64,000 bases of DNA from Strigops habroptila (Eukaryota; Chordata; Aves; Psittaciformes; Psittacidae), in contig NC_044277.2 of assembly GCF_004027225.2 (NCBI RefSeq), forward strand, positions 34,008,812-34,072,811, in the 5' to 3' direction. Positions 23,810-24,633 of this stretch are shown here, piece by piece (within the stretch, counting starts at the first letter, position 1; the number at the start of each line of letters is the position of its first letter). A model generated the notes under the pieces. The model was not told the origin of the DNA, searched no databases, and worked only from the letters and a program-made list of their open reading frames with translations. Position numbers and translations under genes: made by a program.

Positions 23810-24633
23810 CTAATCCAAGGAGAGTGGAGCTGAGGCACTGCCTTCTACATTTAGGATTTGTGAAGTTTCCCCTGCAAGACTCTGTTCTGGTTTTTTTAAG
23901 GAAGTTCCTGTTTTCTGGGTACCGACAGATGAATCCCTAACGGATACATTTACAGCCTGATGAACAAGGGGTTCATCTGACCTTATGGGGAGATATATTT
24001 GATCTTCAAATATATCTTCCACAGCGTCACTGTCCTGATGAGTGTCTTTTTGAGGAATGCTGATGGGTTGTAGCATGAAGCTATGCCGGGACTCCAACTC
24101 TATCAAACCATTTCCACTGAAGTCCATATCAAAATGGTCTGATTCTTTATCCTCCATCCATTTTTCAGCTTGATGATTATTTCTCCAGTGTGCGTCATTC
24201 AAACGACTTTTCTCAGGAATATCATTGTTTAATTCAAGTTTCCTCTCCTGACTTAAATCCACCGTGCTCAAAGTGAGGGCTGCAAAGTCTGTTGGCGCAA
24301 TAAGCTGCAACTCTTCTGCAGGCAGGCCGCTTGATTCTTCAGCATAAGTCATTTCCACTGAGGTAAATGGAGTGGATGATTCATCGCCGTCCCCATCGGT
24401 TCGAGCGGTCTTAGCCTTGTCTGTTTTATTTTGCTGGTAGTAACTGTTCAGCAGTGCAAACATTCTATCTACATCCTTCAAGTAATTAGTCCAGTCAGCC
24501 AGACTAAGTCTATAGTTGTATCTGTATTCATATACACTTTCATTCACACTGTACAAGTCTTCCAGTCCTTGCCAGTCGATGTCGCCAGTGAAACTGGGCA
24601 GGTTAGCCTTCCCATCCATCCCATAACTGTCCT
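23810..24633 (-). CDS. SULF1: Alternative-frame SULF1 C-terminal extension, 274 codons, used if the 34-nt exon is skipped
   Basis: Joining 30800 directly to 24633 gives G|AG (Glu) and an open frame to TAG at 23812-23810. It starts [20 protein letters not shown], then WQGLEDLYSVNESVYEYRYN and YRLSLADWTNYLKDVDRMFA; it ends NVEGSASAPLSLD. The first 70 residues are rich in aromatic and amphipathic-helix patterns (NYLKDVDRMFALLNSYYQQ). The rest is acidic and low-complexity, with IFEDQIYLPI near the end. NES, NKT and NVS are possible N-glycosylation sequons; there is no membrane segment. I recognise no domain. I have an unverified impression that longer SULF1 predictions in other vertebrates carry a similar tail. 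Coding status is inferred from length, since chance open frames this long are rare in AT-rich sequence. Confidence 0.65.
24603..24633 (-). CDS. SULF1: SULF1 terminal exon, canonical frame (GQLWDGWEG, stop)
   Basis: Acceptor TTTCTTTCAACAG. A completes an Arg codon, then GQLWDGWEG and TAA at 24605-24603. The same ending is found in SULF1 and SULF2 of vertebrates, so this frame is ancestral. Only ten codons of a much longer exon are used. Confidence 0.95.

Follow-up and report, generated by a model that had tools for sequence, protein, structure and literature searches.

Skipping of a 34-nt exon and a conserved alternative C-terminus of SULF1, with a candidate glycosaminoglycan site

Almost certainly, a 34-nt cassette exon acts as a splice switch in the SULF1 gene of Strigops habroptila, and its skipping joins to the enzyme a tail of 274 residues that has been conserved as protein. 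This second C-terminus has been retained since the common ancestor of sharks and birds, in a part of the last exon that is commonly drawn as 3' UTR. SULF1 edits heparan sulfate and thereby tunes Wnt, FGF, VEGF and other signals; it has two C-termini, and therefore constructs that stop at the canonical stop test one isoform only. The best reading overall, held with slightly less than even confidence, is that splicing would switch SULF1 into a form bearing a glycosaminoglycan. The window referred to throughout is the whole stretch of 64,000 nt of DNA that was analysed.

Two reading frames and a frame-switching exon

The SULF1 exons were placed by probing with a human SULF1 sequence, after which the splice sites were modelled. 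The last exon begins at 24633 on the minus strand, directly after TTTCAACAG, and within it the canonical frame ends early, with GQLWDGWEG and a TAA at 24605–24603. As the initial annotation had observed, another frame of the same exon stays open for 274 codons, to a TAG at 23812–23810; it had placed the start of this frame exactly at the splice acceptor, but the open run begins seven codons inside the intron, at 24655, and comprises 281 codons. Of the 274 tail residues, 273 come from whole codons within the last exon, and the remaining one from a codon that straddles the junction. The parts of the gene concerned are these:

23810–24633, minus strand: part of the last SULF1 exon coding for the 274-residue alternative tail (exon model and homologues)
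24603–24633, minus strand: stretch read in both frames, canonical (12 residues) and tail (10 residues), from frame reading
29863–29896, minus strand: 34-nt cassette exon and frame switch, GAAATAAAGATGGAGGAAGCTATGATCCACACAG; acceptor ATATCAG, donor CAG/GTATCC (exon model)
30800–30923, minus strand: preceding SULF1 exon, ending one base into a codon; donor GTACAA (exon model)
31035–54651, minus strand: 12 further modelled SULF1 exons with their introns; the 54523/53475 junction of the first two is mis-modelled

Because its length is not divisible by three, the cassette exon is a frame switch. According to the exon model, SULF1 ends with 21 canonical residues when the exon is included; when it is skipped, position 30800 joins 24633 in the tail frame and these last 21 residues give way to 274, of which about 264 fall past the canonical stop. 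Both stops lie within the last exon, and therefore neither form would be expected to be lost to nonsense-mediated decay. The first modelled junction, 54523 to 53475, was incorrect and was left unused.

Across the whole window, 27 stop-to-stop frames span at least 120 codons, and none is longer than the tail frame. When the 1.86-kb neighbourhood of the tail was shuffled 2000 times with dinucleotides preserved, the longest run without a stop in any of the six frames had a mean length of 89 codons and at most reached 194; a run of at least 273 codons occurred in none of the shuffles. G+C content was 44% in the tail, against 29% downstream. Elsewhere within SULF1, a long simple-repeat tract at 36889–37622 gave spurious long open frames on both strands.

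Splice donors usually have a G at +5; the donor of the 34-nt exon is without one and, judged by its sequence, is weak. Three copies of TGCATG, an RBFOX-type motif, lie within 120 nt of the exon:

29970–29975, minus strand: TGCATG, upstream of the 34-nt exon
29811–29816, minus strand: TGCATG, downstream of the 34-nt exon
29744–29749, minus strand: TGCATG, downstream of the 34-nt exon

No copy was found at 12 other SULF1 exons tested, and the same density of three was reached at 0.07% of window positions, in a test run after the motifs had been noticed. The cluster suggests RBFOX-type control of the 34-nt exon, as a lead only.

The tail in other vertebrates

A search of 5.8 billion predicted proteins with the tail returned 105 relatives, the majority of these rows being unnamed contigs. 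Among named rows, identity to the tail was 75–93% in birds, 70–72% in turtles, 43–47% in the primates Microcebus and Otolemur, 46% in frogs and 30% in a catshark. The homologue set consists of predicted proteins, which favours intact frames, and its rows do not count as independent events; within it, frequent stops or frameshifts in other birds, the pattern proposed as speaking against a coding tail, were not seen.

With the joined long form as query, 148 matches were obtained; the 120 listed were mostly named SULF1 or Sulfatase 1, were often about 1120 residues in length (range 596–1187), and came from birds, turtles, gavial, squamates, marsupials, placentals, frogs, a salamander, caecilians and the coelacanth. 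The coelacanth long form gave 143 matches when used as a query in turn, and the 120 listed added sturgeons, gar, bichirs, arapaima, carps, sharks and rays. A script identified the NPR anchor without the microexon residues in 129 of 145 fetched long forms, which are model predictions in most cases, while the anchor was absent from 16. In a few of the 129, between one and three additional residues stood at the junction; P0173, also among the 129, was not clean by eye.

The junction of 30800 to 24633, which had been proposed from the window alone, proved to be that of database-predicted SULF1 isoforms and of one assembled contig. The latter encodes P0219 (1115 aa), which has the skip junction; its contig of 4251 nt was read as spliced because this length is too short for an unspliced multi-exon gene. 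P0060 has the inclusion junction and a tail of 271 residues identical to that of P0219, and therefore both forms are made by one species or by two that are very close. What would represent the skip in RNA is this one assembled contig, together with predicted isoforms. Inclusion may be the commoner form, since none of the 105 short tail matches had the skip junction and 42 of them started inside the 34-nt exon (by script). In the long form of P0106, from Balearica regulorum, the tail is joined in frame to a SULF1 with both the sulfatase domain (PF00884) and DUF3740 (PF12548), and the exon model of the window uses the same junction.

The tail evolves as protein, because its substitutions were more conservative than random draws. 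Among 64 close homologues, and for tail residues 13–273, the 340 distinct single-nucleotide-reachable substitutions had a mean BLOSUM62 score of -0.006, compared with -0.314 (sd 0.069) for random substitutions; none of 500 draws was as high. This protein-level test was used in place of dN/dS and is free of the search bias toward intact frames. Residues 1–12 were left out, and conservation where the tail overlaps the canonical frame was not counted as evidence. The proposal that the tail is coding sequence was borne out by these conservative substitutions, as well as by conservation across vertebrates.

The tail isoform itself is not new. It had been presented as an unknown frame, but predicted SULF1 isoforms of about 1120 residues are already in databases; these entries, of the type 'extracellular sulfatase Sulf-1 isoform X1' (for example, P0106), have the same exon skip and the same tail, and are automatic predictions that, as returned by the search, carry no functional, site or evolutionary account. 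RT-PCR primers for skipping of the 34-nt exon in mouse Sulf1 are also given in the available text of PMC7392665. They read YKQCNPRP and ASNIDEYR; the second, the reverse primer, lies in the tail, and SNIDEYR occurs in the tail of P0078. No account of isoform function, and no description of the tail sequence, its conservation or a sugar chain on it, was found in the open-licence papers searched; the available parts of PMC12108789, PMC9409146, PMC11311815, PMC5216415, PMC4399393 and PMC10949708 have no bearing on the tail. Conservation to sharks, the TGCATG cluster at the switch exon, and the SULF2 relic and SULF2-like DFSGNG site considered below are undescribed in the open-licence literature searched.

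Shorter splice forms of SULF1 have been reported by the Dhoot group (PMC3890690, PMC8999074, each as far as available), comprising QSulf-1B of quail and human and mouse forms without exons 6, 7, 8 and 18. These resemble the present proposal in that SULF1 activity is altered by splicing; unlike the tail form, they are shorter, and no C-terminal extension is described in the available text.

A candidate glycosaminoglycan site and its SULF2 counterpart

The tail is acidic and has sequons, as initially noted, with a pI of 4.4, a net charge of about -28 and three N-x-S/T motifs; it contains 4% proline and no PxxP. The initial annotation knew of no domain that it matches, and indeed Pfam gave no match above cut-off (two phage families at E = 0.016 fell below it), nor was a relative above cut-off found in PDB. 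The AlphaFold2 model of the tail (67-row alignment) had a mean pLDDT of 49.7 and included a helix at residues 44–77, at modest confidence. Low confidence is to be expected for a disordered stalk, and the model indicates that the tail is probably mostly disordered. A full-length SULF1 model had a mean pLDDT of 31.7, and no reading was based on it. The most conserved features of the tail were the helix block DWTNYLKDVDRMFALL, NNDIPE, DFSGNGxxELE, EDIFEDQxYLP and the C-terminal EGSAS. The tail features referred to here are located as follows:

24401–24502, minus strand: predicted helix, tail residues 44–77 (ADWTNYLKDVDRMFALL..), pLDDT about 81 in the best block of ten
24326–24340, minus strand: EESSG, tail residues 98–102, second acidic Ser-Gly site
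24107–24124, minus strand: DFSGNG, tail residues 170–175, candidate glycosaminoglycan site at Ser172
23831–23845, minus strand: EGSAS, tail residues 263–267, C-terminal conserved block, reading EGSG in several rows from fish

Ser-Gly was present at residues 172–173 in 244 of the 250 rows covering this position (251 rows in all). It was lost in P0058, P0069, P0168, P0183, P0206 and P0215, of which P0183 and P0206 are both of the caecilians fetched. The 251 rows were reduced to 65 representatives by dropping those with more than 60 gaps or with at least 75% identity to a row already kept; among these, the serine of this pair was the best conserved of all serines (0.95). The 11 residues before it contained 3.65 acidic residues on average, compared with 1.73 for other serines, and its acidic context exceeded the median of its own tail in 58 of 62 cases. 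A second acidic Ser-Gly (EESSG here; SAESDEESSG or SEDEFSG elsewhere) occurred in 30 of the 65. Under a strict rule, requiring three acidic residues in the six before Ser-Gly, 27 of 65 tails had a site, against a mean of 6.1 (maximum 14) after residue shuffling; the softer counts are quoted alongside because the strict rule missed the window's own sites. In P0075 and P0078, the motif before Ser-Gly was altered (PEGDISGNG and PEGDVVSGNG, respectively), with fewer matches elsewhere in the tail. The tail may evolve faster in rodents; P0078 is the row that matches the published mouse primer.

In human SULF2, Ser583 bears chondroitin sulfate (CS), within GGDFSGTGG behind an acidic cluster, according to the available text of a July 2026 preprint (PMC13405426). 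The SULF1 tested there was not CS-modified; it gained a CS chain when the cluster and the SG site were introduced together, and none with the SG site (DFSGTG insert) alone. The CS chain raised extracellular abundance and, in Trp variants, activity. As far as their available text goes, both papers on SULF sugar chains (PMC13405426, PMC10721642) treat SULF1 as being without one, and the main text of the first, so far as available, has no word beginning 'splic'. Human SULF2, as these two papers present it, has a DFSG-x-G core after acidic residues, as does the SULF1 tail; the SULF2 site lies in the hydrophilic domain, whereas the SULF1 candidate lies in the tail, and the charged residues of the SULF2 cluster, EDQDDKD, are packed more densely. 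Ahead of the tail serine the charged cluster is weaker, typically with three to four acidic residues of 11.

In its entirety, the CS-sequon of PMC13405426 (EDQDDKDGGDFSGWGG) combines a seven-residue charged cluster, DFSG and a nearby Trp, and the SULF1 tail matches it in part: the DFSGNG core is present, the window reads EDKESDHFDMDFSGNG, without Trp, and the cluster is looser in many rows. DFSGNG is therefore called a probable, rather than a proven, glycosaminoglycan site. A Ser-Gly near acidic residues in a predicted-disordered, secreted region, which is what characterizes a part-time proteoglycan, is found in the tail.

A sugar chain was favoured because this Ser-Gly is near-invariant, stands in an acidic context and resembles the DFSGTG site of human SULF2. 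In the mechanism proposed, the 34-nt cassette exon chooses between the two SULF1 C-termini, and its skipping shifts the frame and appends an acidic tail, probably disordered for the most part, encoded by sequence that otherwise belongs to the 3' UTR. The tail would be a stalk on which the serine of DFSGNG would be xylosylated and bear chondroitin or heparan sulfate, with the second acidic Ser-Gly available in about half of lineages. Splicing would then decide whether SULF1 is made as a plain enzyme or as a part-time proteoglycan, the two differing in secretion and activity, perhaps under RBFOX-type control through the TGCATG copies beside the exon. The sugar chain itself is proposed tentatively, at less than even confidence, from the sequence. 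If a glycosaminoglycan is indeed carried on the tail, splicing would control the enzyme's secretion, spread and activity, the cause of the difference between SULF1 and SULF2 would be testable with one construct pair, and the statement that SULF2 has CS and SULF1 does not would be valid for the short SULF1 isoform only.

One further match to the tail was found in the S. habroptila genome, on another contig, directly behind the SULF2 stop (GQLWEGWEG). This stretch is 45–46% identical to approximately the first 62 tail residues, and is interrupted by a TGA, with a further stop after some 80 codons:

L003 8744–8938 (G000:C13): decayed tail copy following the SULF2 stop, with 46% identity and a single internal TGA

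Given the position of this copy, the tail must be older than the duplication that produced SULF1 and SULF2, and the sequence indicates that the SULF2 tail has decayed in this bird. Regular expressions found no equivalent of the 34-nt exon in SULF2 of the same genome. A possible, if somewhat doubtful, history is that vertebrate SULF1 is a splice-gated proteoglycan and that the ancestor of SULF1 and SULF2 had an alternatively spliced tail with a glycosaminoglycan site; this would have been kept in SULF1, with a cassette exon in control of it, while in SULF2 the tail decayed (in this bird) and a CS site lies in the enzyme body (in human at least).

Alternative readings of the tail

The tail could instead, at slightly less than even odds, be a genuine C-terminus that is conserved but bears no sugar chain. 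It would then be a disordered, acidic arm containing a short helix, which would bind a partner, or compete with the enzyme's basic heparan-binding region, and so alter the grip of the enzyme on the substrate or its retention. The low pI and the predicted helix at residues 44–77 agree with such an arm, as do several conserved blocks beyond the Ser-Gly motif; the helix, NNDIPE, EDIFEDQxYLP and EGSAS are conserved, yet are left unexplained by a sugar chain. The arm, for its part, explains neither why the serine of Ser-Gly should be the best conserved and in an acidic context, nor its likeness to the SULF2 site. It is close to the suggestion of the initial annotation, that the tail alters heparan sulfate binding or surface retention; the tail sequence points more to a stalk for glycosaminoglycan attachment, and the initial interpretation as a whole was partly supported.

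It is improbable that skipping is mostly splicing noise or serves to destabilise the protein, the explanation put forward by Preussner et al. 2020 (PMC7392665) for many C-termini that arise by frame shifts. In the available text of that paper, skipped, frame-shifting penultimate exons form a class, splicing-accessible coding 3' UTRs, defined by a frame shifted past the canonical stop with at least 20 new residues, at least 10 of them from the 3' UTR. The class spans thousands of mouse and human genes, whose tails tend to be proline-rich, PxxP-rich and unstable, and the U2af26 tails show no overall conservation. Skipping of the SULF1 exon is identical in mechanism, and SULF1 belongs to the class by this definition, having a 34-nt exon and 274 new residues in the exon model; the weak donor would also be in keeping with noise. 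In contrast to the usual destabilising tails, the SULF1 tail shows neither raised proline content nor PxxP, which are a tendency of the class and not its definition, and its sequence is conserved from sharks to birds, unlike the U2af26 tails.

Production of the tail from the inclusion mRNA, either as a separate downstream ORF from an ATG in the 34-nt exon or through +1 frameshifting, is very unlikely. The tail frame of that mRNA is open for 99 nt further upstream, and ATGs occur within the 34-nt exon; P0001, an 'uncharacterized protein' of Balearica, is a stand-alone product of this kind, and the 42 of 105 matches identified by script start in this way, P0024, P0076 and P0101 also by eye (P0027 being doubtful). 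However, those starts are the choices of gene callers, the codons concerned overlap the conserved canonical frame, and the product would be without the signal peptide needed by its sequons and Ser-Gly sites. A chance open frame in the 3' UTR, for which the only argument is the absence of a Pfam or PDB match, was ruled out by the 2000 shuffles, the homologues as far as sharks and the conservative substitutions.

Three other regions of the window, all on the plus strand, were recognizable. The stretch at 9284–9760 encodes the C-terminal portion of an organic anion transporter (E = 5e-15 to Pfam OATP), probably SLCO5A1, the neighbour of SULF1. Fragments of a LINE-like element, presumably CR1, occupy 57788–58937 and 19994–20551; the first includes a reverse transcriptase domain at 57788–58279 (RVT_1, E = 4e-17), and the open frames at 58440 and 19994 are closely alike.
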